A DNA stretch of 20,358 bases from Terramyces sp. JEL0728 (lineage: Eukaryota > Chytridiomycota > Chytridiomycetes > Rhizophydiales > Terramycetaceae). The notes beneath the pieces are model-generated. The model saw only the letters and a list, made by a program, of their open reading frames with translations, searched no databases and had not been told where the DNA came from. Location: the NCBI GenBank assembly GCA_027603945.1, contig JADIIU010000183.1, positions 1 through 20,358 on the forward strand, written 5' to 3'. This document shows, in pieces, positions 30 to 20,339 of this stretch. A program made the translations under genes and the position numbers. Each line of letters starts with the position of its first letter. Within the stretch, counting starts at the first letter, position 1.

Positions 30-656
30 TTATTCAAAAGAAGTCCATCCATCAGTATCAGACTTGAAATCCCCAAAATCATCCCACTTCTGGTTGCTTG
101 GAGGTGGTGCAATGACAAACTTTGAAAAATCGCCTACTTTATCCTTCTTTTCCTTATTGAATCCGTTCAGACTAATCTCAATTTTCTGGCCTTCTTTTAA
201 CGAATAATCAATAGATTCAAATTTAGGTTGCTCCTGGATCGCTCCTTTATTGTTTACCCGTCTATGTTAATACCAGAGTACTTTTGGTGGTCTTGTAGAG
301 CTACATTCATGTCAAATGCGTACGACCGTTCTTGGAATCCCAGTCCAACAAATGCATATTGGCCAGTCGGCGCGACTACTTTGATTACGAAATAACGAGA
401 TGAATCCAGAACCGGTTCAACCGCACCGTCAGTTATTGGACATTTTGCAAACAATTCTCCTGTTGTATTGTCCTCCAGATGAAGAGCTACATCATCACCT
501 ACCGATATCATTCTCAGTCTTCCGGTCCATAGAAATGAATTTACATCCCAATCCGATGCTCTGAATTAGTATAGTTTACCTGTATCCTTGTGCTGAATTT
601 CGTGGCGGTATTTTATAAACAAAACATTCTCTAATTACACAAAGTACAGATTCCAT
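30..656 (-). CDS. NECAP-like endocytic adaptor (adaptin-ear-binding coat-associated protein), 3 exons
   Basis: Predicted 195 aa cytosolic accessory factor of clathrin/AP-2 endocytosis. Exons are 580-656, 282-560 and 30-261; introns 561-579 (19 nt) and 262-281 (20 nt) are GT-AG. Splicing gives a continuous 588-nt frame. The N-terminal PH-like NECAP domain is clear: it opens MESVLCV, followed by YKIPPR, WTGRLR, TGELFA, DSSRYFVIKV and AFDMNVALQDH, then a shorter KEGQKIEISL stretch. Two WxxF motifs (WDDF about 178-181, WTSF 191-194) sit at the C-terminus; in the family such motifs bind the AP-2 ear. The protein is shorter than animal NECAPs (about 275 aa), mostly from a reduced proline-rich tail. 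The ATG at 656 is the family's expected start. The stop codon is embedded in an AATAAA (29-34, minus strand). Identification is from recognised family motifs. Confidence 0.93.
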
Positions 657-828
657 TTTGAAGATTCAAAGTTAAAATTCTCTGAAATTAGTACTAATCA
701 AAAAAGTACTTTTTCAACACTTTGGGAATACTAAGCGGCTGCTATAGACGCAAAGCATGATGAAAAGTCTGTCTATCAGACCGCCAAACTGTTTCAATAA
801 AGAACGAATACAATTTATTATCAATATA
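657..828. other. Short intergenic region, NECAP promoter / VPS27 3' end
   Basis: Non-coding on both strands as far as I can see. It must hold the NECAP promoter and the VPS27 3' end. An AATAAA lies on the minus strand at 814-819, ten bases past the VPS27 stop. No RNA gene or repeat was recognised. Confidence 0.6.
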
Positions 829-2834
829 CTAGAGCTCAATTAACGGTGCTTCTTGAGGTTTGGCTGGTGGATTTTGCTGCTGTTGATTTTGTTGTTGATT
901 TTGGTTTGGATACCCAGGTTGTGGGGGATGCGCTTGGTAGTGTGGACCATTTGGGTTATATTGTTGCGATTGCTGACCATATTGATTAGGTTGTGAGTTA
1001 AATTGCTGTGGATATTGTTGAGGTTGAGATGGTGCGTATTCTTGATTTCCTGCATATTCACCGGTTGGTGGTTGAGATGGGACATATTGGTTTCCTGGTG
1101 GTGCAGAGTATTGATCGTTTGCTCCTGGTTGACTAGGAGCGGTTGACTGTTCATACTGGGCTGTGTTTGGAGGATGTGAAGGAGTATATGGTTGATTGGC
1201 TGGTGGTTGGGACGGAGCGTATTGTGGGGTTGAAGTATTTGAAGTTTGCGATGTTGCATACTGGGCTGGTGGTGCATGGTGTACAGGATGGCCGCCCTGT
1301 GATTGTGGGGGATATTGTGCAGGAGAATATCCGCCTTGCACAGGATATTGCTGGCCGTATGACTGCGAAGGATTTGACTGATGTCCTGGAGCATACGGCG
1401 GGCCGGGATTAAAACTATGTCCTTGATAGGTTCCTATGATTAATATGAAATTACCATACGAAGGATATCCATATTGGGGATTTGATCCAAGTCCACCGGA
1501 AACACTTTGCGAATATTGTAATCTTTGCTGTAGCAATACATCATAATCTTTGATTACATTTGTTAGTTCAGTGTTCAGATCATATAAGGCTTTGTACTTG
1601 TCAGCCGCCTCTGACAACGAATCTACTAGTGGACGATGCAGTGAAGACACTTTGGCAAACGTCGTCTGTAGTGGGATTGGATTCAAATTTCCCAGTCCTC
1701 CTTGTTGAACATCCCGATCTGCTTTTTCAACCAAGTCACAGAAAATCCTGATACTTTCAACTTGAGATTCAGCCAATCCTCCTACTTTTGCTTCTGTCTT
1801 CGTTTGCTCATATCTAGTTTCATGCTTGGGGGTTGATTGTGGTCTTCCCTGTCTATCTGCCTCTTTTAGTGATTCCTGAATAGCCAATTCCAATTCTTCG
1901 TCTTCCTTTGATTTGGCTTTTGGTTTTTCTTCTCTTGGCCTTGGTAGGGAGGTAGATTTCTTTGCCAGTTCCAATGATTCTGCAATTGCTTTTGCTAAAT
2001 CTTCATCATCGTCTGAATCTACTCTTGCCGGCTTATTTAACTTTACAGGCGTAGATCCAACATCTCCTGTCTTTGTAGTGATCTTGTAATGGCAAGTGTC
2101 GCACACACGTACAGGATCTGTAATTCCCAACAGCGGCAAAGGAATACTTTTGGAAGAGCAATCCTGACAAAACGTAGATCCACAATTTCTACAATGATGC
2201 TTCCTATTGAAAGTTGTAAAATCCGTCCTACACCTCATGCAATAATCGCTGTCAGTCCATTCTGGTGCCTAAATAAGCATAGATCTTACAGTAGTTGTTT
2301 CAAAAAGCACTGCCAGCGAATTAGCCTTTTCAATAGGAGGGAATTGCATCCCTGTATTAGTAAACTAAACCTTCTCTTCTGAGCATATCGTAGGTTTCAC
2401 ATACAATTACAAATTCGGATCTTCCTTTGAAAGCGGCAGCCCATGTTTGGATCAACTCCAGAGATTTCTTTCGTACTTGCTCATGCGTATTCTATGTCAA
2501 CGATAATTACCAATTGGCGGGCTAGCGAGACTAAATTATCAACGAAATCCCGCGAAGTCACTTCCTGCAAGAGCAATTTCCCACTATTTTTCACACAGGT
2601 GTCGGTCAATTTCAAAGCTAAAAGAGTTACATTGGGGTTTTTATGGTTGATCCTCTTTTTAATGGCAGCGACATAGTTCTTTGGCGAAATCTTGCCAGAT
2701 TTGATTTTGTCCGCAATGTCCAAATTAGTCGCAAGGTCTTCAGTTCCAATGGGAAGATTCTCTGAAGTTGCTTTTTCTACGGTAAGCTAAAATTCACCAA
2801 TATCTTCGTCAGCTGGGTTTGCAAACAGATTCAT
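829..2834 (-). CDS. VPS27: Vps27/Hrs-like ESCRT-0 subunit (VHS-FYVE-UIM), 6 exons
   Basis: Predicted 634 aa ESCRT-0 component that binds PI3P and ubiquitinated cargo on endosomes and recruits ESCRT-I and clathrin. Introns: 2777-2797 (21 nt), 2492-2510 (19), 2352-2370 (19), 2269-2289 (21), 1434-1454 (21). The spliced CDS is 1905 nt. Domains in order: VHS (about 8-145, with ATSENLPIGTEDL and LKLTDTCVKN), FYVE (about 163-225, with the PI3P motif RKHHCR at 184-189, the RVC motif, and zinc cysteines from C172 to C221), two ubiquitin-interacting motifs (about 251-266 with AIAESL; about 285-300 with AIQESL), a helical segment, a long Gln/Pro/Tyr-rich tail with four PSQP repeats, and a terminal clathrin-box-like LIEL. 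The intron at 1434-1454 has no stop and is a multiple of three, so the tail reads through if it is unspliced. Start 2834 gives MNLFANPADED before the VHS. Confidence 0.95.
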
Positions 2835-2907
2835 TTTCAAAGTTTACAATATCAGCCACCTCTCCTCTGAAACGTTGCTTGACTGAAATTTTTTTTCTCA
2901 ACAGAAA
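2835..2907. promoter_or_regulatory. 73-bp divergent promoter region between VPS27 and TCTP
   Basis: The start codons of VPS27 (minus, 2834) and TCTP (plus, 2908) are only 73 bp apart, so both 5' UTRs and both promoters must share this stretch or overlap the neighbour. A T/pyrimidine-rich run ending in CTCAACAG lies just before the TCTP ATG. It resembles a TOP-like leader or a 3' splice site, but no matching upstream donor is evident. No TATA box was identified with confidence. Confidence 0.6.
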
Positions 2908-3434
2908 ATGATTATTTACAAGGACATTATCTCTGGGGATGAAATGGCTTCTGACGCTTTCGAAATCCGCGAAATTGACGATATCGCTATTGAAATAGAT
3001 TGCAAGGTAGTTACGTTTTAATTCAGAACATTACCGTCATGCCAGGTGCTGATGTCGACATTGGTGCCAATGCTTCCGCTGAAGAACAAGAAGAGCAATT
3101 GGAAGATGGCGCTGTTACTGTCAACAATGTTGTCTATACTTTCCGCCTCAGTGAAACCTCATTTGACAAGAAATCTTACATGTCATACATCAAAGGATAC
3201 ATGAAGACCATCAAGGCTCATCTTCAAGAACACAACCCAGATCGTGTTGCTACATTTGAAGCCAACGCTCCTGCATTCGTCAAGAAGATCCTAGGCAACA
3301 TCAAAGATTACGAATTCTTTGTCGGTGAATCTATGGATCCAGAAGGCGCTGTCGGTCTCTTGAACTACCGTGAAGACGGCATTACTCCTTACATTACTTA
3401 TTTCAAGGATGGCTTGAAGACTGAAAAGGTTTAA
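2908..3434 (+). CDS. TMA19: Translationally controlled tumour protein (TCTP/Tma19 family), 2 exons
   Basis: Predicted 168 aa, the standard TCTP length. Exon 1 is 2908-3006 and exon 2 is 3027-3434, separated by the 20-nt intron GTAGTTACGTTTTAATTCAG. The N-terminus MIIYKDIISGDEMASDA, the first TCTP signature (IGANASAE), the helical hairpin SYIKGYMKTIKAHLQE and the second signature region (FFVGESMDPEG through LNYREDG) are all present. TCTP is an abundant cytosolic, ribosome-associated protein linked to growth and stress responses. Without the intron the reading frame is interrupted by an in-intron stop, so this well-known protein is strong evidence that 20-nt introns are spliced here. It is convergent with the ASH-RhoGAP gene, the two stop codons being separated by only 51 bp. 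Confidence 0.97.
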
Positions 3435-3485
3435 ATATAAATTTTTACGTTTTAGTTGTGATCTCTTAGCCGACTGTAAATACAA

Positions 3486-4777
3486 TTACTTTATTTGAGT
3501 CTGGATCGCCAATCGATGTTCGACCAACTTTGACATGAATGAAATCATTGCTGGCAGTAACAGGTACATTTCAGCTGAATCTGCTGCGTCGCATAGATTT
3601 GGCACCACTGCTGTCACTAGAATTAAATTGGGCTACCTATACTCTTGATTCCCATTTCATTGTATTTTTCGTTGATCACTACCGTCGTCAGTAGGTCAAT
3701 GACCCACATTATTAGATTAATTTCAGTAGAGTTGTCTGCGAACGATAGGATAAGCCTATTCCAGCACAGCTGCGAAGACTGCGTTCCATAAATAATATCT
3801 TTGGGGATTTTCAAAAACGGAGCACTTGGGAGAGTTTTAAGATTGTTCTACTGTTAGTAACAAGTACTTTTAAACATGAGGCTATTGAGTAGCCATCTGC
3901 GCATGAATAATAAGTTCCCCTCTTCAAATGAGTTTCCAGCGCTTGAACTTCCCATGATTGCCCAGCTTCTCTAAATATGCCTTTTAACTTTATCCCATCA
4001 ACTGCAAACAACATTAGCCTCAGTCTAACTAGAGTTTTTGGTATACTAGCATTAAGATTGGCTACCTGTAGCTGGATCCGGGAAATATCGCATCCCTTTG
4101 ATTTATATCAGCTTCCATTGGTTGAGGAGGCAGCAGTTTATTGGTATCCTTTTTCCTGCATTTTATAACCACAAAATGTCTTGGCCCTCCTTGGATTTCA
4201 ATCTGTATCACCGCATTCAGCACCACTGCTGATTTGTTCAGACAATTTAATTTTACAACCAAATCAACCTCAGACTGTCTTCCTCCGAGCTTGCCTCCTA
4301 ATGGGTCGACCTGCAGTTCAAAATTTGTATCTACTTTTGGCATAATTAGTGAATATTTGACTGTATTTTGATACTTTGCTTTCAACCTGATGCTCTTTGT
4401 TTGAAATCTATTTAAATAGTGTGGAAATATTAGAGTATAATTATCGATTTCAATATCCTGCCCAAGTCGCGGCCGTGTTTTATACTGGAAATCATTCAAT
4501 GCGCTGGGTGTAAGCGATATCAAATATGTATACAATTGCTGCTGTTCTTGCAGAGTAATTTCCACAATCGCTGGTCTAATTTAGACTGTACATACCTCCT
4601 CAAGATTTCTGCAAAATCAGCAATCCTTGAAGTTGATTTCCGTAGTGCTCGAGGCGGAGATGTAGGCGCTTTGGGTGTGGGAAATGTTTCCAATAAATTT
4701 AATATTGAAGTATTTACATTTTCCTCCTTGTTCATTTTTGTCAAATATTTTACGGCGTTAAATGGGGCTTTACTCAA
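3486..4777 (-). CDS. ASH-domain RhoGAP protein (OCRL C-terminal-like, no phosphatase), 5 exons
   Basis: Predicted 403 aa. Introns at 4576-4595, 4046-4065, 3848-3867 and 3617-3636 are all exactly 20 nt; the spliced CDS is 1212 nt. After a short N-terminal region (with TFPTPKAPTSPP-like sequence from the first exon) comes an immunoglobulin-like ASH/MSP-type segment (about 95-190, with FELQVDPLGGKL), then a RhoGAP domain (about 230-400). The GAP arginine finger is present in GIFREAG (R256), the conserved lysine in CLK (K290) and the asparagine in VPNL (N367); the usual second arginine of LRELP is lysine (LKTLP). The ASH-RhoGAP order is that of OCRL/INPP5B C-termini, but there is no inositol 5-phosphatase upstream. 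Likely role: stimulating GTP hydrolysis by a Rho/Rac/Cdc42-type GTPase at membranes (inference). An AATAAA (3490-3495, minus) lies inside the last codons. Confidence 0.85.
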
Positions 4778-4866
4778 TTAACAAACTGCACTGTAAAAAT
4801 GACGCATGAAACCACTACCCAACAAGCCAAAAAGTATAGACTACAAAAACAACTGCCGTTTTAATT
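4778..4866. other. Spacer between RhoGAP start and tRNA-Pro
   Basis: 89 bp. It contains the RhoGAP promoter and the tRNA 3' flank. On the minus strand a T5 run (4845-4849) about 18 bases past the tRNA end is a likely Pol III terminator, with another T5 at about 4829-4833. Confidence 0.55.
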
Positions 4867-4939
4867 GGGGCTAACCCGGACTCGAACCGGGAACCTCCCG
4901 CACCCTAAGCGGAAATCATAACCCTTAGACCATTAGCCC
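4867..4939 (-). tRNA. tRNA-Pro(AGG): tRNA-Pro, anticodon AGG
   Basis: A 73-nt cloverleaf without intron reads on the minus strand. The acceptor GGGCTAA pairs with TTAGCCC, the discriminator is C, the anticodon stem TCCGC/GCGGG closes the loop TTAGGGT (anticodon AGG, decoding CCU/CCN proline), the variable loop is AGGTT and the T-arm is CCCGG-TTCGAGT-CCGGG. The C discriminator fits eukaryotic tRNA-Pro. The left edge of the 7.7-kb tandem duplication falls in the T-loop of this gene (about 4882), so this is the only intact copy in the window. Confidence 0.96.
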
Positions 4940-5067
4940 ACTGAAAATCCAGAAATCGTACTTTTATAAACCAATCACATTGAATATCAAACTTTTACGG
5001 CTCGGTTTATTAAACGGACACATGATAGAATTCAGCTTGTTGGTACTTTATTATGACATGGCTGAAA

Positions 5068-6681
5068 TCAATATTGCTTGCTTGAGGGCCGTTCATAGAA
5101 TTCTCTCCCTTGCCTGGCAACAAAGATTCCATAATAAATTACAGCATCTAGCAGCTCGCGCGTTTCCAACACTTCAAGGATAGAATGGAATTGGTTAATC
5201 TTTTGAAATGCCCTACTAAATTCCTTTATGCCATGGAGCATCTGCTTATAGTATTCGTCACTAAAGGGTATTCCAAGCTTCGAACAGCACAGCAAAAAGA
5301 AGCCAGTAGGGAATAGTGTCAAAAGAGCAGCAGTAGCAAAGAATTCAAAAGTGGGGTTGAATTGTATAACAAGTTTCACCAACAGTGTGCTCGTTACCGC
5401 TGCGTCCAAGGCATTTTTGAAATACATTAAATTTTGAACCTTCTTTCCTTTAATTACATTCCGCATCAGCGAGGGGAGTATCAGGTTTATGCGGATACTG
5501 CAGTATATAAGTGCGATATAAATGGTTAACCAGGCTGTATCTCGATGTTTGCAATGGTCACGTACACTATACATGCCTTTTTGAAGGACAGGGGAAAAGC
5601 CATCCATCCAATCATTCAGAGAAGCGTTAATTGCCCCCGCGGTATATAATGAATATGCATTTTCTTCTGTTAGTTCAAGTTCAAAATGGCGGTGGACTTT
5701 TGATTGTATCCGGTGCAGAATCGCGTGGTAAGCATTAACACCAAGCTCTCCAGTACTTGCTGTGTACCATTCGCTGCTAGTCATTATTTCAATTCCATAA
5801 TAATCTGCAGCAGAATGCATTTCAAAATATAAAGTGTTTGAGGGAAGGAATATCTGGTTTTCTTTGTCTTCAATCGATCCGTATCCTAGTACTTTAGATA
5901 GAAAGGTATAATTCCTATAGAGCAACCACCATGCCCTCCGAATGTTTTCCCTTTCGTAATCAAAGGAGGAAATTTTTGAAATTCCAACTTCAGTGTTAAT
6001 TTCGGAAATTTTTGCGTGTAGCAATGCCAGCCTAAAATACAGAATCGCTTCTTCAGTGCAATTAAGATCTATGTTAGGAAGAAATACTGTAGAGGATATT
6101 GAAAATGATTTCCAGGGTAAGTACAGTAAGGTGGTCACACTTGTGTGCAAAGTCGAAAGACTGCGCTTTCTGGAGGTATATATTGACAAGCACAATCCTG
6201 TCCGAGATCCCCAGTGGTAAAAGCTCTTGTGGGATGTACAATGCGCCGCTTGCAAATAACGCAAATCGAAGTGGTGGAAATATTTTTGCAGATCCCCTAT
6301 AGTACTGCTCTGTTACTCCGTAAATAACACTGGGAAACCTTTTGAATCTTAATTCCAGTAGATGATTGTGATCTTTCGTGAACAATTCTTGCTCCAATTC
6401 TTTAGATAGTACGATTTGTTTGATTTGTGGCCGCAGCTTTTCTCTACTTTGCAAGACGCTGTTGGTAGGACTCAGCAGGGTTTGCTCCATTTGTTTTATG
6501 CGTTCTTCAACCTTAAGCAAATGAAGTTCAAATTCCCATTGTTTGGAATACTCGCATTTTGAATGTCTGCTTTCACAAAACGAACATGGCTGCTTCCTAT
6601 CGCATCTGCGCTTCTAAATCAAACAGTTGGTACTCTTTTTGTGCAGAAATCGCAGGAATAAGTCATCTTTTTGAAAATCAT
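5068..6681 (-). CDS. Zn(II)2Cys6 transcription factor, paralogue TF1 (unit A)
   Basis: Predicted 524 aa nuclear regulator. Introns are 6614-6633 (GTACCAACTGTTTGATTTAG, 20 nt, inside the zinc cluster) and 6069-6087 (19 nt); exons are 48, 526 and 1001 nt. The binuclear cluster has the canonical spacing C-x2-C-x6-C-x5-C-x2-C-x6-C (C10, C13, C20, C26, C29, C36), with basic KRKRR between Cys2 and Cys3. A short coiled-coil-like linker (about 48-66, VEERIKQMEQ) suggests dimerisation. The rest is an alpha-helical fungal transcription-factor regulatory region: RRAWWLLYR (about 239-247) resembles the conserved RRxFWxLY motif of the fungal_trans domain, and FPTGFFLLCC plus LLDAVIYYGIF are conserved in all paralogues. 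AATAAA follows 16 bases after the stop (5047-5052, minus). Target genes are unknown. Confidence 0.9.
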
Positions 6682-6859
6682 GCTTTTCGGGGAAGTTGAG
6701 AAAATCCACTCCATGAAAATATTGGATTTTGTCAAGATGATTCTATTCGGTAGCAATCTACTATGCAACCAATAAATGGCTTTAATCAGACGAATATGAT
6801 CTTTTTCCCAATTCTATGTATGGCCAGATTCAAAATTGTATCTCAACTTTCGACTATAT
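6682..6859. promoter_or_regulatory. TF1 upstream region, unit A
   Basis: 178 bp between the TF2 stop and TF1 start. It holds the TF1 promoter and the TF2 3' end. Two CCAAT pentamers are visible on the plus strand (within AACCAATAAATGG and TCCCAATTC), but CCAAT-box function is not shown. Unit B lacks about 10 bp (CGACTATATT) present here just after the TF2 stop. Confidence 0.45.
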
Positions 6860-8504
6860 TTATTTAATATCTAATTCAGCAAATGTCCCAATATGGTGGG
6901 CAGCTGGCCTCTCCATGAGTTCTGTGTTCTGTCTGGTGATGAACATTCCATAATACATCACAGCCTCCAGCAAGTCCTTTGATTGCAAAAGCAATAAAAT
7001 GCCGTAAAACTGATTCAATTTTTGGAAAGCCCTGCTAAACTTCTTGATGCCATCCAGCAGTTGCTTGTAATATTCTTCGCATTTTGGTATTCCCATTTTG
7101 GCACAACACAGCAAAAAGAACCCCGTGGGAAACAGCGATAATAGTACAGCAGCCGCGAGAAATTCAAGTTTGGGATTAAATTGAATGACTACCTGTATTA
7201 AATTAGTACTCGTCACAGCGGATTCAATTGCTTCCTTGAAATACAACTGCTTCATGACCTTTTTGCCCTTAATCACATTCCGCATCATTGTTGGTATAAT
7301 CAAGTTCACCCTGATACTGCAGTAGACAAATGCCGTGTAGATTATAAACCAAGTTGTTTCTCGGTTTTCCAAGGCACCGCTCCGCACCGAATTAAATGCT
7401 TTTTGCAAATTGGGAGAGAATAAATGAATCCAGTCTGCTAACGATGCGTTAATAGCCCCAGCACTATAGAGTGATAAAGTGTCATTTTCAGATAGTTCTA
7501 TTTCAAAGTGGTGAAACATTTTAGACTGTATTCGTTGCAGCAACATATGGTATCCATCAACTTCTTGGCAAGGCAGACAGGCGGTATACCATTCATCACT
7601 GGTCATGATTTCTACCCCATAATAGTCACTAGAGTGAGCGGATTCAAAATAGAATTTGTTTGAAGGTAGAAACAGCAAATTTTCTTGGTCGTCCATCGTT
7701 CTAAATCCAATAATGTTGCAAAGAAATGAATAGTCTCTATACAGTATCCACCAAATCCTCCTGATATTCTCTTTTTCATAGTCAAATAAAGAGATCTTTG
7801 ATATTCCATGTTCAGAGTTGATTCCTGAAATTCTTGCTTGTTGTAATGCTAGCTTGAAATAAAGAATGGCTTCCTCGGTGCTGTTAATATCTAAATTAGT
7901 GAAAAGTACGATAACAGATATTGCAGATGACTTCCAAAGTGAGGACTGTTAAATGATCGCATCTTTCTCCAAAATTAAATGACTGCGCTTTTTGTAGATA
8001 TAAATTAACCAGCTCAATTCTGTCCGATACTCCATCCGGTAATTGATCCGGGGTAATAAATAGTGCTCCGCTGGCAAAAAGCGCGAACCTTAATGGCCAA
8101 AAAATTTTAGCTGATTGTCTGTAGAATTCCTCCATTATCCCAAATATTACGCAGGGAAACCTTTCGAATCGCAATTCCAGCAAATGTTCATGATCTTCTT
8201 CAAACAAACGATGCTCCAACTCTGGTGTTAAAGCAATATGCTTTATAATAGGCCGTACTTTATCCCGTTTCCGCAGGATACCATTATTTGGACTTAATAA
8301 ATTTATTTCCATCTGCTTAATCCGTTGTTCAATATCCGCCAGTTGTATTTCAAACTCTTTTTGCTGTGAGTATGTACAATGTGCCCGTTTACTTTCGCAA
8401 AAGCTGCAAGGCTGCATCCTATCACATTTCCGTTTCTATATAAATCCGAAATTTACTCTTTTAGTGCAGAAATCACAAGCATACTTTAGTTTTTTGAAAA
8501 TCAT
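6860..8504 (-). CDS. Zn(II)2Cys6 transcription factor, paralogue TF2 (unit A)
   Basis: Predicted 534 aa. Introns are 8436-8456 (21 nt, in the zinc cluster after CTKR) and 7891-7909 (GTACTTTTCACTAATTTAG, 19 nt); exons are 48, 526 and 1031 nt. Both introns contain in-frame stops or change the frame, so an unspliced reading looks like three broken ORFs. Zinc cluster cysteines are C10, C13, C20, C26, C29 and C36, followed by a coiled-coil-like linker (IEQRIKQMEINLL) and the same helical regulatory domain (RRIWWILYRDY, FPTGFFLLCC, LLEAVMYYGMFITRQ). Closest in look to TF1. The TAA stop lies inside an AATAAA (6859-6864, minus). No known target; family assignment is firm, biological role is not. Confidence 0.9.
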
Positions 8505-8772
8505 CAAGCGGATCTAAGTGGAAAAATGGAAAAAAAGGGAGCAAAATTGTCGCGATAAGGGTGGTTAAAGTACTACTGATGGGTTTGGTAACAGTGATGC
8601 CGTGGTCCATATGGTGATCTAGCTGCTTAGTTTCCGTATTTCCAAAGAATCAAACGATGGGCAGGTGAGTGATCTACTGCACAATAACGAAAGTTGCGGA
8701 ATTGACTTGGGTTGAAACTAGAAATTGAATTCTTATCAATATCCTTACAGCTAATTAACTAACACTACAGCT
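8505..8772. other. TF2-TF3 intergenic region, unit A
   Basis: 268 bp without a supportable gene. It includes the TF2 promoter. Compared with the unit B counterpart (16236-16530) it is the most diverged stretch of the repeat, including a replaced block after GTGATCTACTGCA. No RNA gene or transposon remnant was recognised. Confidence 0.6.
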
Positions 8773-10447: not shown

Positions 10448-10523
10448 AATAAAAAAATTAAACCCATTCTTGAATTTTATGTGTGGTGCCACACCAGCTA
10501 CTTGAATTCTGATTCAAAACAAT
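10448..10523. promoter_or_regulatory. TF3 promoter / TF4 3' end, with a 6-2-6 palindrome
   Basis: Only 76 bp separate the TF4 stop and the TF3 start, so the TF3 promoter must be here or within TF4. It contains the inverted repeat GTGTGG-TG-CCACAC (10481-10494), 34 bases upstream of the TF3 ATG. The repeat is kept in unit B as a 5-2-5 core. A dimeric regulator site is possible (inference). Confidence 0.45.
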
Positions 10524-12169
10524 TTATTTAATTAAAAGATATTCCATCAATTCTATATGGCTTGGTGCAGGTCGCTCCATAATCTCCCCCTTTTGGCGTC
10601 CAATAAAGATCCCGTAGTAAATCACAGAATCGATGAGATCCAGCAGCTCCATATGAAGCAAGATATTATGGAACTGGTTTAATTTCTGGAATGCGTGGCA
10701 GAATCGCTGAAATCCTTTTATAATGATTTTAAAAGAAATGGTAGCTTCGTCGATAAGCAGCTTTTTACAGCACAGAAGGAAAAATCCTACCGGGAATAGG
10801 GCAAACACCAAGATCATAGCCATGTATTTCAAATCCGGATTGAATTTCATGATAAGTTCAACAACTTGTGCACAGGATACAGCAGCGTCCAGCGCTTCCT
10901 TAAAATACAGCTGCTCCGTAACTTTTTTCCCGTCAATAACATTCCTCATAAAGGCTGGAAGAACTAAATTGATTCTAGCACTGAAATATACCATTGAAAT
11001 GTAAATAGTGAACCAAGCCTTGTCTTGATCTTTTTCAATTTGGTTTGTAATTGTAAACTTTGCTAACTGAAATTTGACAGTAAATACACTCATCCAGTCA
11101 ATCATAGATGCATTAATACACCCGCCAATATAATGCGATTCGTTGTTGTTGCCCGTTAGTTCAATATTGAAATAATGGTTTGTCTTTTCCTGAATCCTTT
11201 GGATGATCATGTGTAGTGCTTCGATATCCAGATCAGGCAACGTGTAGGTATACCACTCTTTACTCGACATTATTTCGATTCCAAAATAGTCTCTCGAGCC
11301 GGCGAATTCAAAATAAATGTTGCTTGATGGCAAAAATAGTTTGTTTTCTTCTGCCAAAATGCTTCCATACGGCACATGCTTGGGGAACGAGCAGTAGTCT
11401 CTATATACAAGCCACCATATTCTCCTAATATGCTCCCTTTCGTAGTCAAATAGTGTTATTTTCGATATTTGTTCCTCGCAACTTATTTTGGAAATTCTTG
11501 CGTACTGGATCGTCAGCCTGAAATACATTACGGCTTCGTCTATTGAATTGAGTTCTATATAAGCAAAGTGATTACGATAGCAGACGTTTGTTATCACCTC
11601 TAGGGTCATCACAGATATATGATCGCAGCATTTGGCATAATCGAACGACTGCGCTTTTTGGAGAAAAAGATTTACAAGGTCAAGCCTATTGGATATTCCA
11701 GGCGGTAATTGATGATCCTTTACAAATAATGCTCCGCACGAGTAGAGAGCGAATCGGAGTGGCCAAAATATTTTTGCAGACTGTCTGTAGTACTCTTCGG
11801 TGATTCCCAGGATTATCCCTGGAAACTTTTTAAATCGAAGTTCCAACAGGTATTCGTGGTCCCTTTCAAACAGCTCTTTCTGTAGTTCGTGAGACAGGGT
11901 AACATGTATAATAGTAGGATGCACCTGCTCTTTTTTCTCAAGATGGTACTTGGTAGTGACTAATAGCCGCCGCTCCATTTGCTTGATGCGCTGCTCAATC
12001 TTTTCCAGCTGTTCTTCCACTTCTGCTTGATTGGAGTATTCACACTTATTGCTCTTGGCAACGCAGAACGAACACGGCTGCTGCCTATCACACTTGCGTT
12101 TCTATATCAGTAATTTCGTACTCTTTTTGTGCAATAATCACAGCTGTAGCGAACTTTTTTGTAAATCAT
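10524..12169 (-). CDS. Zn(II)2Cys6 transcription factor, paralogue TF4 (unit A)
   Basis: Predicted 534 aa. Introns are 12102-12121 (GTACGAAATTACTGATATAG, 20 nt, in the zinc cluster) and 11555-11575 (21 nt, in-frame and stop-free, same position and phase as in TF1-TF3); exons are 48, 526 and 1031 nt. The zinc cluster has C10, C13, C20, C26, C29, C36. The linker (IEQRIKQMERRLL) is coiled-coil-like. The regulatory region shares RRIWWLVYRDY, FPVGFFLLCC and LIDSVIYYGIFIGRQ. A TAA stop lies inside AATAAA (10523-10528, minus). It is the gene next to the repeat junction; its upstream region is the 420-bp tail. Target unknown. Confidence 0.9.
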
Positions 12170-12583
12170 ATCCGAAAAATTTAGGGAAAATGCGGGAAAA
12201 TGTGATGAATGTATACCCAAATAAACATTTTTTATCGAAATTGGCAGGAAATTCGGATCTTTTTGTAGTTGTAGATGTGATTGGCTTTCCACCATATTTA
12301 GCTGTTGAGATCAGACGATTCGTTTGCTGCCGGATGATATTAGTTCAAATTTTGATTTCTCGATAGCCAGCCAAAATAAGCCTGTCTAGTACCGACTAGC
12401 ATAGCTAACATTTCCGCAAGTGATCTTTGCCAGCATTGGACTATATTGCAATAACCATATTTGTGGCGGGTTCGGGTGGAATTTCGCAAACCGCTTGAGT
12501 AAAACAATCAGCCAGCAACATCGGCTGCAGATAGCCAAGCAGCTGCCAATGCGAATGATGCAGCGATAATTGGAGATGAAAGC
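12170..12583. promoter_or_regulatory. Non-coding tail of unit A, TF4 upstream region
   Basis: About 414 bp with no gene I can support. It should include the TF4 promoter. A small minus-strand ORF (12386-12631) is not kept in unit B because of an indel and is rejected. The stretch CGGGTTCGGGTGG...AAACCG (about 12468-12494) contains CGG/CCG triplets, the kind of half-site Zn2Cys6 proteins bind, and is unchanged in unit B; this is only suggestive. Several differences from unit B are transitions at CpG. Confidence 0.5.
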
Positions 12584-12590
12584 AAAAAAT
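12584..12590 (-). terminator. Probable Pol III terminator (T6) of the 3' tRNA fragment
   Basis: The minus strand reads ATTTTTT directly after the proposed discriminator base at 12591. A T6 run in this spot is what a tRNA gene end would show, and it supports the tRNA origin of 12591-12609. Confidence 0.6.
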
Positions 12591-12667
12591 CGCTCCCAGG
12601 TGGGCTTGATCGAACCGGGAACCTCCCGCACCCTAAGCGGAAATCATAACCCTTAGACCATTAGCCC
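12591..12667 (-). pseudogene. Chimeric tRNA pseudogene at the A/B junction
   Basis: Bases 12610-12667 are identical to tRNA-Pro(AGG) from its 5' end through the T-loop TTCGA. Bases 12591-12609 read (minus strand) TCAAGC-CCACC-TGGGAGC-G followed by ATTTTTT (12584-12590): a T-loop end, T-stem 3' strand, acceptor 3' strand, discriminator and Pol III terminator of a different tRNA. The two halves cannot pair (CCCGG with CCACC; GGGCTAA with TGGGAGC) and the T-loop would be 11 nt, so it should not fold as a functional tRNA. The identity of the second tRNA is not known. The Pro-derived part is certain; the second-tRNA reading is inference from structure. Confidence 0.8.
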
Positions 12668-12808
12668 ACTGAAAATCCAGAAATCGTACTTTTATAAACC
12701 AATCGCATTTGAATATCAAGCTTTTGATGGCTCGATTTATTAAACGGACACATGATAGAATTCAGCTTGATGCCCAATTGTTGGTACTTTATTATGACAT
12801 GGTTGAAA

Positions 12809-14422
12809 TCAATATTGCTTGCTTGAGGGCCGTTCATAGAATTCTCTCCCTTGCCTGGCAACAAAGATTCCATAATAAATTACAGCATCTAGCAGCTCGC
12901 GCGTTTCCAACACTTCAAGGATAGAATGGAATTGGTTAATCTTTTGAAATGCCCTACTAAATTCCTTTATGCCATGGAGAATCTGCTTATAGTATTCGTC
13001 ACTAAAGGGTATTCCAAGCTTCGAACAGCACAGCAAAAAGAAGCCAGTAGGGAATAGTGTCAAAAGAGCAGCAGTAGCAAAGAATTCAAAAGTGGGGTTG
13101 AATTGTATAACAAGTTTCACCAACAGTGTGCTCGTTACCGCTGCGTCCAAGGCATTTTTGAAATACATTAAATTTTGAACCTTCTTTCCTTTAATCACAT
13201 TCCGCATCAGCGAGGGGAGTATCAGGTTTATGCGGATACTGCAGTATATAAGTGCGATATAAATGGTTAGCCAGGCTGTATCTCGATGTTTGCAATGGTC
13301 ACGTACACTATACATGCTTTTTTGAAGCACAGGGGAAAAGCCATCCATCCAATCATTCAGAGAAGCGTTAATTGCCCCCGCGGTATATAATGAATATGCA
13401 TTTTCTTCTGTTAGTTCAAGTTCAAAATGGCGGTGGACTTTTGATTGTATCCGGTGCAGAATCGCGTGGTAAGCATTAACACCAAGCTCTCCGGTACTTG
13501 CTGTGTACCATTCGCTGCTAGTCATTATTTCAATTCCATAATAATCTGCAGCAGAATGCATTTCGAAATATAAAGTGTTTGAGGGAAGGAATACCTGGTT
13601 TTCTTTGTCTTCAATCGATCCGTATCCTAGTACTTTAGATAGAAAGGTATAATTCCTATAGAGCAACCACCATGCCCTCCGAATGTTTTCCCTTTCGTAA
13701 TCAAAGGAGGAAATTTTAGAAATTCCAACTTCAGTGTTAATTTCGCAAAGTTTTGCGTGTAGCAATGCCAGCCGAAAATACAGAACCGCTTCTTCAGTGC
13801 AGTTAAGATCTATGTTAGGAAGAGATACTGTAGAGGATATTGAAAATGATTTCCAGGGCAAGTACAGTAAGGTGGTCACACTTGTGTGCAAAGTCGAAAG
13901 ACTGCGCTTTCTGGAGGTATATATTGACAAGCACAATCCTGTCCGAGATCCCCAGTGGTAAAAGCTCTTGTGGGATGTACAATGCGCCGCTTGCAAATAA
14001 CGCAAATCGGAGTGGTGGAAATATTTTTGCAGATTCCCTATAGTACTGCTCTGTTACTCCGTAAATAACACTGGGAAACCTTTTGAATCTTAATTCCAGT
14101 AGATGGTTGTGATCTTTCGTGAACAATTCTTGCTCCAATTCTTTAGATAGTACGATTTGTTTGATTTGTGGCCGCAGCTTTTCTCTACTTTGCAAGACGC
14201 TGTTGGTAGGACTCAGCAGGGTTTGCTCCATTTGTTTTATGCGTTCTTCAACCTTAAGCAAATGAAGTTCAAATTCCCATTGTTTGGAATACTCGCACTT
14301 TGAATGTCTGCTTTCACAAAACGAACATGGCTGCTTCCTATCGCATCTGCGCTTCTAAATCAAACAGTTGGTACTCTTTTTGTGCAGAAATCGCAGGAAT
14401 AAGTCATCTTTTTGAAAATCAT
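12809..14422 (-). CDS. Zn(II)2Cys6 transcription factor, paralogue TF1 (unit B)
   Basis: Predicted 524 aa, the unit B twin of the gene at 5068-6681. Introns are 14355-14374 (20 nt, identical to unit A) and 13810-13828 (19 nt, one substitution: GTATCTCTTCCTAACATAG). Exons are 48, 526 and 1001 nt. The six zinc-cluster cysteines are unchanged and the cluster differs only by a silent change (AAA to AAG). Amino-acid differences from unit A are few: for example KISE to KLCE, ENQIF to ENQVF, QKGMY to QKSMY, QMLHG to QILHG. The pattern fits a recently duplicated, still-functional gene. AATAAA lies at 12788-12793 (minus). Confidence 0.9.
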
Positions 14423-14590
14423 GCTTTTCGGGGAAGTTGAGAAAATCCACTCCATGAAAATATTGGATTTTGTCAAGATGATTCTATTCGGTAGCAATCT
14501 ACTATGCAACCAATAAATGGCTTTAATCAGACGAATATGATCTTTTTCCCAATTCTATGTATGGCCAGATTCAAAATTGTATCTCAACTT
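14423..14590. promoter_or_regulatory. TF1 upstream region, unit B
   Basis: 168 bp, essentially the same as the unit A counterpart but lacking the 10 bp next to the TF2 stop. Holds the TF1 promoter; no gene seen. Confidence 0.4.
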
Positions 14591-16235
14591 TTATTTAATA
14601 TCTAATTCAGCAAATGCCCCAATATGGTGGGCAGCTGGCCTCTCCATGAGTTCTGTGTTCTGTCTGGTGATGAACATTCCATAATACATCACAGCCTCCA
14701 GCAAGTCCTTTGATTGCAAAAGCAATAAAATGCCGTAAAACTGATTCAGTTTTTGGAAAGCCCTGCTAAACTTCTTGATGCCATCCAGCAGTTGCTTGTA
14801 ATATTCTTCGCATTTTGGTATTCCCATTTTGGCACAACACAGCAAAAAGAACCCCGTGGGAAACAGCGATAATAGTACAGCAGCCGCGAGAAATTCAAGT
14901 TTGGGATTAAATTGAATAACTACCTGTATTAAATTAGTACTCGTCACAGCGGATTCAACTGCTTCCTTGAAATACAGCTGCTTCATGACCTTTTTGCCCT
15001 TAATCACATTCCGTATCATTGTTGGTATAATCAAGTTCACCCTGATACTGCAGTAGACAAATGCCGTGTAGATTGTAAACCAAGTTGTTTCCCGGTTTTC
15101 CAAGGCACCGCTCCGCACCGAATTAAATGCCTTTTGCAAATTGGGAGAGAATAAATGAATCCAGTCTGCTAACGATGCGTTAATAGCCCCAGCACTATAG
15201 AGTGATAAAGTGTCATTTTCAGACAGTTCTATTTCAAAGTGGTGAAACATTTTAGACTGTATTCGTTGCAGCAACATATGGTATCCATCAACTTCTTGGC
15301 AAGGCAGACAGGCGGTATACCATTCATCACTGGTCATGATTTCTACCCCATAATAGTCACTAGAGTGAGCGGATTCAAAATAGAATTTGTTTGAAGGTAG
15401 AAACAGCAAATTTTCTTGGTCGTCCATCGTTCTAAACCCAATAATGTTGCAAAGAAATGAATAGTCTCTATACAGTATCCACCAAATCCTCCTGATATTC
15501 TCTTTTTCATAGTCAAATAAAGAGATCTTTGATATTCCATGTTCAGAGTTGATTCCTGAAATTCTTGCTTGTTGCAATGCTAGCTTGAAATAAAGAATGG
15601 CTTCCTCGGTGCTGTTAATATCTAAATTAGTGAAAAGTACGATAACAGATATTGCAGATGACTTCCAAAGTGAGGACTGTTAAATGGTCGCACCTTTCTC
15701 CAAAATTAAATGACTGCGCTTTTTGTAGATATAAATTTACCAGCTCAATTCTGTCCGATACTCCATCCGGTAATTGATCCGGGGTAATAAATAGTGCTCC
15801 GCTGGCAAAAAGTGCGAACCTTAATGGCCAAAAAATTTTAGCTGATTGTCTGTAGAATTCCTCCATTATCCCAAATATTACGCAGGGGAACCTTTCGAAT
15901 CGCAATTCCAGCAAATGTTCATGATCTTCTTCAAACAAACGATGCTCCAACTCTGGTGTTAAAGCAATATGCTTTATAATAGGCCGCACTTTATCCCGTT
16001 TCCGCAGGATACCATTATTTGGACTTAATAAATTTATTTCCATCTGCTTAATCCGTTGTTCAATATCCGCCAGCTGTATTTCAAACTCTTTTTGCTGTGA
16101 GTATGTACAATGTGCTCGTTTACTTTTGCAAAAGCTGCAAGGCTGCATCCTATCACATTTCCGTTTCTATATAAATCCGAAATTTACTCTTTTAGTGCAG
16201 AAATCACAAGCATACTTTAGTTTTTTGAAAATCAT
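14591..16235 (-). CDS. Zn(II)2Cys6 transcription factor, paralogue TF2 (unit B)
   Basis: Predicted 534 aa twin of the gene at 6860-8504. Introns are 16167-16187 (21 nt) and 15622-15640 (19 nt); exons are 48, 526 and 1031 nt. The notable change is in the zinc cluster: the residue after Cys5 is Lys (CSFCKSKR) instead of Glu (CSFCESKR), a charge reversal caused by a CpG-type transition. All cysteines are kept. Other changes are mild (FIIYT to FTIYT, TMMRN to TMIRN, EAIES to EAVES, GTFAE to GAFAE). The TAA stop is again inside AATAAA. DNA-binding preference could differ slightly from unit A (inference). Confidence 0.9.
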
Positions 16236-16530
16236 CAAGCGGATCTAAGTGGAAAAATGGAAAAAAGGGAGCAAAATCTGTCGCAATAAGGGTGGTTGAA
16301 ATACTAACTGATGGGTTTGGTAACAGTGATGCCGTGGTCCATATGGTGATCTAGCTGCTTAGTTTCCGTATTTCCAAAGAATCAAACGGTGGGCAGGTGA
16401 GTGATCTACTGCAATTTTTACACATCAATGAAGGTTGCGGAATTGACTTTGGTTGAAACTAGAAATTGAATTCTTATCAATATCCTTACAGCTAATTAAC
16501 TAACACTACAGCTTTATTTTTTACCAAGCG
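16236..16530. other. TF2-TF3 intergenic region, unit B
   Basis: 295 bp without a gene I can support. It contains the TF2 promoter. The piece AATTTTTACACATCAATGAAGG (about 16413-16434; described, not a gene) replaces a shorter, unrelated piece in unit A, marking a local rearrangement since duplication. The former TF3 3' codons and its AATAAA also lie here because the unit B TF3 stop is earlier. Confidence 0.55.
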
Positions 16531-18187
16531 CTAACCCAGCTTTACTTTACTGAAATTCTCTACTAGCTCGTCCTTGCTAGCAGCTGGTATTTCCATGATT
16601 TCATCTTTTACCCTCCCGATAAAAATACCATAATAAATAACGGCGTCCAACAGATCCATTGATTCCATATACTGCATAATCTTATGAAACTGGTTTAGTT
16701 TTTGGAACGCAAAGCTGAACTGTCTGATCAGTCTAAGAAGATTTTCATATGCTGGTTGGGCACCACTAATTTCCAACTTTGTGCAGCACTGCAAAAAGAA
16801 GCACGGCGGAAACAGCTTCAAAAGTGCAACCACTTCAAAGTACTCTAATCTAGGGTTATACTGCATGATTAATTCGACCAGTTTGGAACAGCCAATTGCA
16901 GCGGCAAAGATTTCCTTGAAATGCAGCTGTTTTTGAACGCTCCTCCCATTTATTACATTTCTCATAATTGAGGGGATAACCAAATTGATCCTGATGCTGT
17001 AGTATAATATACATATATATACCGCAAACCATGCGCTATCCTGTTCTCCTGCTTGTCGGTGTTTGATAATGCCAATATACCGTTGAAACTTTGGAAGAAA
17101 CTCAATCCTCCAATCAACCAAGGAAGCATTAATGCTGCCAGCTGCATATAGAGATTCGATCGAATCCCCAGTCAGATCCAGTTCAAAATACCGTTTCGTT
17201 TTTAGCTGAATTCGAAGTAAAATGCTGTGGTAGGCTTCTATTTCAAGATTTGGTATCGAACAAGTATACCAGTCAGGGCTAGTCATTACTTCTATTCCAT
17301 AATAGTCTGTGCTTGTGGGCGATTCAAAATAGAATCTGTTTGAAGGCAAGAACAATTGATTATCACTTTCTTCTACAGTGTCATAATCCAAGTGTTTGGA
17401 AAAGAATGAAAAATCCCTATATAACACCCACCAAATCCTTCGAATATGCTCCTTTTCATAATCAAAAGTAGTGAGAGAAGATATCCCCATTTCTGAATTT
17501 ATCCGGCTAATTTTAGCATGCTGAACAGCCAATCTAAAATATAAATTACTAGCAGAGATCTTGTTCAATTCTAATTTAATCTTTTGTTTACGAAAACAGA
17601 CACTTACGATGACTTCTAGAGCCAAAGCAGTAAGATAATCGCACCGCTGAGTGAAATTGAAAGATTGTGCTTTCTGCAAATAGATGCTGGCCAGTTCAAT
17701 TCGATCAGACACTCCGTTTGGTAGCTGATGTTCTTCAATGAATAGTGCACCGTTTGCTTGCAATGCAAAGCGTAGTGGCCAAAATATCTTTGCTGATTGT
17801 CTGTAATATTGCTCAGAAATACCAAATACAACAGGTGGAAATTTCTCGAAGCGCAGTTTTAGTAGATAATCATGATCTGTTTCAAACAGATACTTTTCCA
17901 ATTCCTCTGTTAGTGAAATATAGATTATTGTGGCTGGTTTGGTATATTTTTGTTCATTTGTATAGTTGGACGGACGCAACAGGCTCTGCTCTAGCCGCTT
18001 TATCCTCTGTTCAATCGACTGCAATTTCTTTAGTGCTTGTTCTTGCCCGGAATATTCACACCTTGCTCCTCTATTCTCGCAGTTTGAACAAGGCTGCTCC
18101 CTATCGCATCTGCGTTTCTTTTTAGTGATTGCTTACCCTTTTGGTACAATAGTCGCACGAATACCGAATCTTTCTCTGGTTCAGCAT
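16531..18187 (-). CDS. Zn(II)2Cys6 transcription factor, paralogue TF3 (unit B), C-terminus shortened
   Basis: Predicted 538 aa twin of the gene at 8773-10447. Introns are 18118-18136 (19 nt, identical) and 17571-17591 (21 nt, in-frame, stop-free); exons are 51, 526 and 1040 nt. Deletion of one base (plus-strand G, position 8792 in unit A) turns the end into KLG-stop and removes the last six residues; the rest is intact. Substitutions include TAELEKH to TEELEKY, SATIF to SAKIF, DWRIGF to DWRIEF and QDRAW to QDSAW. SAKIF matches the other paralogues, so unit A may carry the derived state there. The lost tail is basic and poorly conserved between paralogues, so function is probably kept. Confidence 0.9.
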
Positions 18188-18265
18188 AATAAAAAAATTA
18201 AACCCATTCTTGAATTTTATATATGTGGTGCCACACCAGCTACTTGAATTCTGATTCAAAACAAT

Positions 18266-19910
18266 TTATTTAATTAAAAGATATTCCATCAATTCTATAT
18301 GGCTTGGTGCAGGTCGCTCCATAATCTCCCCCTTTTGGCGTCCAATAAAGATCCCGTAGTAAATCACAGAGTCGATGAGATCCAGCAGCTCCATATGAAG
18401 CAAGATATTATGGAACTGGTTTAATTTCTGGAATGCGTGGCAGAATCGCTGAAATCCTTTTATAATGATTTTAAAAGAAATGGTAGCTTCGTCGATAAGC
18501 AGTTTTTTACAGCACAGAAGGAAAAATCCTACCGGGAATAGGGCAAACACCAAGATTACAGCCATGTATTTCAAATCCGGATTGAATTTCATGATAAGTT
18601 CAACAACTTGTGCACAGGATACAGCAGCGTCCAGCGCTTCCTTAAAATACAGCTGTTCCGTAACTTTTTTCCCGTCAATAACATTCCTCATAAAGGTTGG
18701 AAGAACTAAATTGATTCTAGCACTGAAATATATCATTGAAATGTAAATAGTGAACCAAGCCTTGTCTTGATCTTTTTCAATTTGGTTTGTAATTGTAAAC
18801 TTTGCTAACTGAAATTTGACAGTAAATACACTCATCCAGTCAATCATAGATGCATTAATACACCCGCCAATATAATGCGATTCGTTGTTGTTGCCCGTTA
18901 GTTCAATATTGAAATAATGGTTCGTCTTTTCCTGAATCCTTTGGATGATCATGTGTAGTGCTTCGATATCCAGATCAGGCAACGTGTAGGTATACCACTC
19001 TTTACTCGACATTATTTCGATTCCAAAATAGTCTCTCGAGCCGGCGAATTCAAAATAAATGTTGCTTGATGGCAAAAATAGTCTGTTTTCTTCTGCCAAA
19101 ATGCTTCCATACGGCACATGCTTGGGGAATGAGCAGTAGTCTCTATATACAAGCCACCATATTCTCCTAATATGCTCCCTTTCGTAATCAAATAGTGTTA
19201 TTTTCGATATTTGTTCCTCGCAACTTATTTTGGAAATTCTTGCGTACTGGATCGTCAGCCTGAAATACATTACGGCTTCGTCTATTGAATTGAGTTCTAT
19301 ATAAGCAAAGTGATTACGATAGCAGACGTTTGTTATCACCTCTAGGGTCATCACAGATATATGATCACAGCATTTGGCATAATCGAACGACTGCGCTTTT
19401 TGGAGAAAAATATTTACAAGGTCAAGCCTATTGGATATTCCAGGCGGTAATTGATGATCCTTTACAAATAATGCTCCGCACGAGTAGAGAGCGAATCGGA
19501 GTGGCCAAAATATTTTTGCAGACTGTCTGTAGTACTCTTCGGTGATTCCCAGGATTATCCCTGGAAACTTTTTAAATCGAAGCTCCAACAAGTATTCGTG
19601 GTCCATTTCAAACAGCTCTTTCTGTAGTTCGTGAGACAGGGTAACATGTATAATAGTAGGATGCACCTGCTCCTTTTTCTCAAGATGGTACTTGGTAGTG
19701 ACTAATAGCCGCCGCTCCATTTGTTTGATGCGCTGCTCAATCTTTTTCAGCTGTTCTTCCACTTCTGCTTGATTGGAGTATTCACACTTATTGCTCTTGG
19801 CAACGCAGAACGAACACGGCTGCTGCCTATCACACTTGCGTTTCTATATCAGTAATTCGTACTCTTTTTGTGCAATAATCACAGCTGTAGCGTACTTTTT
19901 TGTAAATCAT
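18266..19910 (-). CDS. Zn(II)2Cys6 transcription factor, paralogue TF4 (unit B)
   Basis: Predicted 534 aa twin of the gene at 10524-12169. Introns are 19844-19862 (GTACGAATTACTGATATAG, 19 nt, one T shorter than in unit A) and 19297-19317 (21 nt); exons are 48, 526 and 1031 nt. The one-base indel lies wholly within the intron, so the spliced protein is unaffected. The zinc cluster is unchanged. Substitutions include EEQLEKI to EEQLKKI, ERDHE to EMDHE, NLFLQ to NIFLQ, ENKLF to ENRLF and PAFMR to PTFMR, all outside the zinc cluster. Upstream lies the unit B tail. Confidence 0.9.
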
Positions 19911-20332
19911 ATCCGAAAAATTTAGGGAAAATGCGGGAAAATGTGATAAATGTATACCCAAATAAACATTTTTTATTGGATTTGAAATTGGTAGGAAATT
20001 CGGATCTTTTTGTAGTTCTAGATGTGATTGCCTTTCCACCATATTTAGCTGTTGAGATCAGACGATTCGTTTGCTGCCGAATGATATTAGTTCAAATTTT
20101 GATTTCTCGATAGCCAGCCAAAATAAGCCTGTCTAGTACCGACTAGCATAGCTAACATTTCCGCAAGTGATCTTTTGCCAGCATTGAACTATATTGCAAT
20201 AACCATATTTGTGGCGGGTTCGGGTGGAATTTCGCAAACCGCTTGAATAAAACAATCAGCCAGCACCATTGGCTGCAGATAGCCAAGCAGCTACCAATGT
20301 GGATGATGTAGTGTATAATTGGAGATGAAAGC
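19911..20332. promoter_or_regulatory. Non-coding tail of unit B, TF4 upstream region
   Basis: About 420 bp without a gene I can support, matching 12170-12583 with more differences than the coding parts, including about 6 extra bases near 19980 and one extra T near 20174. The CGGGTTCGGGTGG element is retained. Confidence 0.5.
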
Positions 20333-20339
20333 AAAAAAT

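Follow-up and report, generated by a model that had tools for sequence, protein, structure and literature searches.

Introns close to 20 nucleotides (nt) in length, among the shortest described, are found in a very short list of lineages. The chlorarachniophyte nucleomorphs of Bigelowiella, Lotharella and Amorphochlora, which are relict endosymbiont nuclei, harbor about 800-1,000 GT-AG introns per genome, mostly 18-23 nt long, and two exceptional introns (40 and 41 nt), in which a relict AG lies at the center, are ascribed there to the fusion of two units (PMC4494063, in the portion available). The introns of Stentor coeruleus are of near-fixed length (15-16 nt) with branch A mostly at the 10th or 11th position; U2AF1 and U2AF2 are listed as present, a strong branchpoint consensus is absent, and Slu7 and Prp18 are listed as N/A, according to the available portion of the report (PMC9505925). 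Paramecium, with introns of about 25 bp (PMC5014332, in extract), and the dicyemids combine ultra-short introns with intron-rich genomes. Both were grouped with Bigelowiella natans as shortest-intron lineages in 2008, in a paper whose available part reports no branchpoint signature for any of the three and describes the 5' splice sites of B. natans as largely restricted to GT(A) (PMC2483917). The present analysis concerns the tiny introns of a fungus, Terramyces sp. JEL0728 (chytrid order Rhizophydiales), as found in bases 1-20358 of contig C183 (the window, 20,358 nt in full) and in a larger sample of the same 15.0-Mb, 231-contig assembly. The likeness to chlorarachniophyte nucleomorphs drawn in the initial annotation is apt, given the 18-23 nt reported there. 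On the genomic evidence, these are very probably real GT-AG spliceosomal introns of the U2 type, and the coding-region introns of this chytrid's nuclear genome would have converged on a fixed length of 19-22 nt.

The earlier observation of tiny introns in the window is confirmed. The introns were derived by hand, with GT-AG introns only considered, and then tested by script; all 28, spread over positions 262-19862, were re-derived at exact coordinates with open frames throughout. Ten are 19 nt, nine are 20 nt and nine are 21 nt long, amounting to 22 distinct sequences. GT-AG ends are present in 28 of 28 by construction, and GTA forms the first three letters in 26. The reported tally also holds, with two introns in a NECAP-like gene, five in VPS27, one in TCTP, four in a RhoGAP-like gene, and two in each of eight Zn2Cys6 transcription factor (TF) genes, TF1 to TF4 in copies a and b. 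Once the introns are removed, each of the 12 genes becomes a single open reading frame that is a multiple of three. Read from the sequence, retention would shift the frame at 19 of the 28 introns and introduce an in-frame stop at four of the nine 21-nt ones.

The spliced products behave as members of known families. A Pfam scan of six of the 12 products matched the expected family in all six, including Zn_clus in two transcription factors; VPS27 was scanned over residues 1-455 of its 634, and TF1a and TF4a were read from an internal ATG. In protein-to-genome alignments that allowed GT-AG introns of 10-200 nt at equal cost for every length, TCTP proteins of other chytrids (P0007, P0009 and P0023) all chose the identical 20-nt intron. 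The TCTP product matches the public TCTP of Terramyces sp. JEL0728 with 100% identity and that of Boothiomyces sp. JEL0838 with 94%, and the spliced RhoGAP-like product agrees with public HDV01_002528 (P0121) at 100% of its 389 residues. The public models of both genes have the tiny introns removed.

The genome-scale sample consisted of 200 kb, the first 100 kb each of contigs C1 and C2, both outside the window. A search pattern built from the window introns, GTA...YTRAY-N2-3-AG, which fits 14 of the 22 distinct ones, gave 5, 63, 91, 44, 19, 5 and 3 matches at lengths of 18 to 24 nt. The background at 23-60 nt averaged 8.6 matches per length, with a highest single count of 16 at 30 nt; this observed mean was used for comparison because a Markov-3 background was too low over the same range (∼6.7). 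A gene finder blind to the motif, which was given only the statistics of coding sequence, the GT and AG ends and lengths of 10-200 nt weighted equally, placed 77 of 152 GT-AG introns at 19-22 nt. Control dinucleotide pairs placed 9 of 134 (TG-GA), 2 of 123 (GA-TG), 3 of 118 (AC-CT), 4 of 143 (GT-GA), 6 of 112 (CT-AC), 2 of 128 (GC-AG) and 6 of 132 (AT-AC) in that range, such that the peak is seen with GT-AG only among eight pairs. The coding model of this run was trained on tiny-intron gene models and may mildly favor tiny introns. An earlier, stricter run placed 14 of 29 introns at 19-22 nt in a first pass that was trained on long open frames only, without tiny-intron gene models, and 15 of 31 in a second pass retrained on the first, as against 0-1 of 29-33 for five control pairs under the second-pass model. 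A length peak near 20 nt, the genome-wide absence of which the initial annotation named as refuting, is present in the 200 kb both by pattern and by the motif-blind finder.

When the motif was included, gene prediction yielded 121 genes with 132 kb of coding sequence and 202 called introns (∼1.5 per kb of coding sequence), of which 48 are 19 nt, 95 are 20 nt, 37 are 21 nt, 18 are 22 nt and 4 are 23 nt long. Scaled to 15.0 Mb, this corresponds, as a rough figure, to about 15,000 coding introns in the whole genome. Near-uniform length below ∼25 nt, the hallmark of the ultra-short intron class, is found in the sampled sequence. The 19-21 nt range given by the initial annotation stands within the window and widens in the sample to 19-22 nt, with a few introns of 23 nt and three doubled sites of 40-44 nt. 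Ten gene models picked by eye among the 20 richest in introns, of 121, all match a Pfam family (protein kinase, Ku, flavodoxin/FAD, eIF3c, carboxyl transferase, dynamin, DAGAT, Arf, histone-like factor and RRM), and by the authors' count 40 of their 51 introns fall inside the best domain stretches.

The introns have a recurrent anatomy with two nearly fixed distances. In the motif-blind set, YTRAY-N1-4-AG is present in 57 of 77 introns compared with 9% of all 4,823 equal-sized GT-AG strings, and a GTA start in 70 of 77 compared with 31%. The step from YTRAY to AG is mostly 2-3 nt, with 1 and 4 nt also occurring. Counted from the first G of the intron as 1, branch A lies at nt 14 in 92, nt 15 in 83, nt 16 in 19, nt 17 in 3 and nt 13 in none of 224 introns, 202 of which came from the motif model; the best-scoring branch site lies at nt 8-12 in 21 and is unclear in 6. 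The YTRAY branchpoint complements the canonical GUAGUA box of the Terramyces U2 small nuclear RNA (snRNA), consistent with U2-type introns. Among the 202 called introns, 54% have T and 19% have G at position +5 (36% and 23% of the 22 distinct window introns), and T is also the most frequent base at positions 6-9, so that nt 5-9 are T-rich. The +5 preference for T is unlike the usual GTAAGT.

The four splicing proteins that were sought, U2AF1, U2AF2, Slu7 and Prp18, are all present. U2 snRNA is canonical (140.2 bits). U2AF1 is present and was found in four pieces; the first 190 residues of Schizosaccharomyces pombe U2AF23, aligned to the genome, pick three introns in its gene, all of 19 nt. U2AF2 scores 251.7 bits with internal stops when left unspliced, below the family cut-off of 310.3, and 333.8 bits after removal of four modelled introns of 19-20 nt. 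Slu7 and Prp18 were also found, both above their cut-offs. Loss of U2AF, Slu7 or Prp18 is ruled out as an explanation, and the losses for which the initial annotation recommended inspecting U2 and U2AF are not seen among the factors sought. Yeast can do without Slu7 where only a very short distance separates branchpoint and AG, hence the presence of Slu7 here was not predicted.

The snRNAs that pair with the 5' splice site are canonically recognized by the boxes ACUUACCU in U1 and ACAGAGA in U6. Neither gene was found in the assembly by Rfam model or pattern, nor U6 by DNA search, a negative that is not proof of absence because no genome with a known U1 or U6 was run as a control. The canonical U1 5' end pattern gave four matches versus 12 for a reversed control pattern; Rfam finds no U1 at these four loci up to E = 1, and by eye two look like 5' splice sites in reverse complement and the other two like coding sequence. 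A further U1 pattern, TTACCT plus loop I, had no match in the assembly. For U6, the DNA search and one pattern found nothing in the assembly, and the single match of a second pattern is not U6 by its context and has no Rfam match. Two U6 Rfam matches (27.4 and 26.9 versus a cut-off of 44) were rejected, as by eye they lie inside an apparent duplicated coding gene (L022 and L023, at G000:C199 near 4823 and C111 near 34941), whose intron probably measures 21 nt in one copy but 20 nt in its duplicate, judged by eye from the sequence. The U1 and U6 genes may be missing from the assembly, interrupted or divergent.

Several observations weigh against the interpretation of these segments as a fixed class of spliceosomal introns. 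It is drawn from genomic sequence, and the U1 and U6 genes, through which the 5' splice site would be recognized, were not found. Five of the 28 window introns, all of 21 nt, would read through if retained (1434-1454; 9831-9851 and 17571-17591; 11555-11575 and 19297-19317). The pattern count is a lower bound because eight of the 22 distinct window introns miss the strict pattern. The sample spans 200 kb of 15.0 Mb and coding introns only, rare long introns and introns in untranslated regions may exist besides, and the ruler mechanism set out below is one that we infer. The first two points lend what support there is to the idea that the segments of 19-22 nt are retained in the mRNA and hopped over by ribosomes (translational bypassing), or are removed by a non-spliceosomal route. 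This is very improbable in view of the GTA...YTRAY...AG arrangement, which is that expected of spliceosomal introns and matches the U2 box GUAGUA, of the retention of U2AF, Slu7 and Prp18, and of the seven other dinucleotide pairs that show no comparable length peak. As for the read-through introns, four of the five are the second intron of TF3a, TF3b, TF4a and TF4b. In the corresponding alignment column, and as read from the sequence in the same phase, the paralogs TF1 and TF2 carry a 19-nt intron that shifts the frame.

The tiny introns might instead be a subset that coexists with normal, longer coding introns that were missed, an unlikely reading that draws on 64 motif-blind GT-AG calls longer than 23 nt (16 with the branchpoint motif at their end), on three sites of 40-44 nt, and on single lengths above the pattern mean, such as the 16 counts at 30 nt. 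Fourteen of the 16 motif-ending calls, however, contain a 19-23 nt GT...AG string ending at the same acceptor, so that their donor is probably misplaced, and the three 40-44 nt sites divide exactly into two units. GT-AG calls at 36-60 nt number 7 compared with 26-35 in the controls, and those at 61-200 nt number 43 compared with 47-58; a separate longer class is not seen in the pattern counts or motif-blind calls. That the frame-breaking inserts are assembly or sequencing errors has a negligible probability. Nothing was found in its favor, the genome-wide length peak already disfavors it, and the inserts agree in consensus and length from contig to contig, occur at matching sites in paralogs, and have counterparts in sister-genus proteins with seven-residue inserts at such sites.

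Compared with the described systems, the Terramyces introns are best read as an independent variant of the nucleomorph and Stentor kind. They resemble those of nucleomorphs in their GT-AG ends, their length and their two-unit exceptions, and those of Stentor in the near-fixed length, in the narrow placement of branch A in most introns and in the presence of U2AF1 and U2AF2. In contrast with the nucleomorphs, they reside in a 15-Mb fungal genome and have a strong YTRAY at a fixed distance; in contrast with Stentor, they are 19-22 nt long and Slu7 and Prp18 are both detected. The weak or absent branchpoint consensus reported for the nucleomorph, Stentor and Paramecium class, and likewise for dicyemids, is replaced in Terramyces by a strong motif with fixed spacing. 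A paper on sequence constraint in short-intron versus intron-poor lineages is reportedly by Irimia and Roy. Short-intron lineages are described as having weak sequence constraint and no branchpoint signature, and intron-poor lineages as having strong constraint (PMC2483917, in the part available). Yarrowia, Trichomonas and Giardia are treated in the same source as intron-poor, with a branchpoint 2-4 nt from AG and no pyrimidine tract, and the introns of T. vaginalis are often about 25 nt long. Terramyces shares this 3' arrangement, unlike them has ∼1.5 introns per kb of coding sequence, and is a counter-example in that it combines short introns, an intron-rich genome and a strong branchpoint. 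The main text of a survey of 644 fungal genomes, in its available portion, names neither Terramyces nor Gorgonomyces, and its density table covers two chytrids (PMC8476143). In a search of the literature on short introns in fungi and chytrids, and on Terramyces and Boothiomyces, such chytrid introns are unreported among the matches listed, which leave subscription papers mostly outside and are weak evidence of novelty.

The addition of this fungus to the lineages with introns near 20 nt is significant for several reasons. As U2AF, Slu7, Prp18 and a strong branchpoint are kept, intron shrinkage is separable from the loss of signals and factors, two processes that were confounded in earlier cases. 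Minimal spliceosome distances become testable in a fungus, which could show the smallest piece that the splicing machine handles. Terramyces is presumably a cultured saprobe.

To judge from the fixed geometry, the spliceosome may be adapted to tiny introns. Recognition would follow the intron-definition mode, in which U1 would occupy the 5' end while SF1, U2 and U2AF would sit next to one another over the branchpoint and AG. The floor of 19 nt would be set by a steric minimum of ∼14 nt from the 5' splice site to branch A, and the short fixed step from branchpoint to AG would replace a downstream pyrimidine tract and set the ceiling, the AG being chosen by its closeness to the branchpoint. Lengths beyond one unit would arise only by back-to-back doubling, with the units of a doubled intron removed one after another. 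A wider reading, which is tentative and has somewhat less than an even chance of being correct, holds that this fungus independently moved its ∼15,000 coding introns to one geometry (14-16 nt to branch A, 2-3 nt from motif to AG). Splicing would then be a hard two-ruler process, because of which intron length would be quantized as one unit of ∼20 nt or two, removed sequentially, and the pairing of U1 and U6 at the 5' splice site would be shortened or altered because +5 is mostly T, not G. If true, the two-ruler reading breaks the rule of branchpoint loss in short-intron genomes. Weak 5' splice sites need not mean altered snRNAs, since the nucleomorph U1 and U6 of B. natans have canonical boxes although the introns lack a 5' motif (PMC6461891, in the part available).

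The doubled introns comprise three called sites made of two units with zero gap: 20 + 20 nt in an Arf-family gene (C1:92202-92839), and 21 + 23 nt and 20 + 20 nt in two other genes. The Arf-family gene, which we take to be Arl2-like, has its doubled intron inside the Pfam match, and its 40 nt are no multiple of three. At a score threshold of 2, two tandem pairs have a gap of 0, none have gaps of 1-12, and gaps of 13-60 average 0.12 pairs each. The excess of back-to-back pairs is suggestive only.

The window also provides a comparison between gene copies. A tandem repeat of ∼7.7 kb (4940-12600 and 12673-20358) carries four Zn2Cys6 genes per copy. The edge of the repeat unit lies inside a tRNA-Pro gene that is intact at 4867-4939 and, by eye, present only as a fragment near 12600-12672; the Zn2Cys6 array may continue, because the contig ends at the same repeat edge. 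Between copies a and b, the exons show 79 substitutions over 6,428 aligned bases and a single indel, which falls at 8792 within the final codons of TF3. The introns show one substitution and one indel over 159 bases, and other sequence 38 substitutions and 12 indels over 1,057 bases. Owing to the intron indel, the first TF4 intron is 20 nt long in TF4a (12102-12121) and 19 nt long in TF4b (19844-19862).

Public annotation of this family is uneven. The public TF4 model HDV01_002532 has 541 residues compared with 534 here, as it retains the 21-nt intron at 11555-11575 as RNHFAYI. Nine public homologs, of 14 found, were aligned at the site of the second TF intron. The seven extra residues are absent in five of the nine (P0124, P0126, P0127, P0129 and P0130), an insert is present in P0123, the public TF4 model, and in the Boothiomyces protein P0132, and the remaining two show no residues ahead of the site. 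Models of Boothiomyces sp. JEL0866 have the seven-residue inserts GRKLLNL (P0122) and SKTVLTI (P0132) at homologous intron sites, each encodable by a 21-nt GT...AG string, which suggests from the proteins that this sister genus shares the tiny-intron trait. P0122 also lacks ∼25 residues present in the Terramyces protein, which is taken, unproven, as a modelling error. Some public models of this family thus retain 21-nt introns as coding sequence, so that predicted proteins carry false seven-residue inserts.

Of the 12 intron-bearing genes, all but TCTP lie on the minus strand. The NECAP-like gene (30-656; PF07933, DUF1681, Pfam E 3.3e-58; spliced coding sequence 588 nt) has introns of 19 nt at 561-579 (GTAAACTATACTAATTCAG) and 20 nt at 262-281 (GTACTCTGGTATTAACATAG), both by hand derivation and script. 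VPS27 (829-2834; spliced coding sequence 1905 nt; VHS 4.2e-38 and FYVE 1.9e-19 in the part scanned) has introns of 21 nt at 2777-2797 and 2269-2289, each with an in-frame stop if retained, of 19 nt at 2492-2510 and 2352-2370, and of 21 nt at 1434-1454, the last in frame, stop-free and called from its motif alone. TCTP (2908-3434, plus strand; PF00838, 1.3e-74; product of 168 residues) has the 20-nt intron GTAGTTACGTTTTAATTCAG at 3007-3026, the one picked by the three heterologous proteins. The RhoGAP-domain gene (3486-4735; Pfam 1.5e-06) has four 20-nt introns, at 4576-4595, 4046-4065, 3848-3867 and 3617-3636; the Boothiomyces JEL0866 model has a seven-residue insert at the place corresponding to the last.

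In repeat copy a, TF1a (5068-6714; Zn_clus 5.2e-08) has a 20-nt intron within the zinc cluster (6614-6633) and the 19-nt intron GTATTTCTTCCTAACATAG (6069-6087). TF2a (6860-8504) has a 21-nt intron with an in-frame stop if retained (8436-8456) and one of 19 nt (7891-7909). TF3a (8773-10447) has a 19-nt intron (10378-10396) and the in-frame, stop-free 21-nt intron at 9831-9851 that shares an alignment column with 6069-6087. TF4a (10524-12169), with its start taken from the public protein, has the 20-nt and in-frame 21-nt introns described above. In copy b, TF1b (12809-14455) has introns of 20 nt (14355-14374) and 19 nt (13810-13828), TF2b (14591-16235) has introns of 21 nt with an in-frame stop if retained (16167-16187) and 19 nt (15622-15640), and TF3b (16531-18187) has introns of 19 nt (18118-18136) and 21 nt (17571-17591, in frame and stop-free). 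TF4b (18266-19910), whose start was set by analogy with copy a, has the 19-nt intron GTACGAATTACTGATATAG at 19844-19862 and an in-frame, stop-free intron of 21 nt at 19297-19317.

The identical public TCTP of this strain is listed on two contigs, the longest of 37,031 bases. The related Zn2Cys6 proteins HDV01_001098 and HDV01_001099 lie on a 37,031-base contig, which would represent a second, related cluster or a larger duplication.

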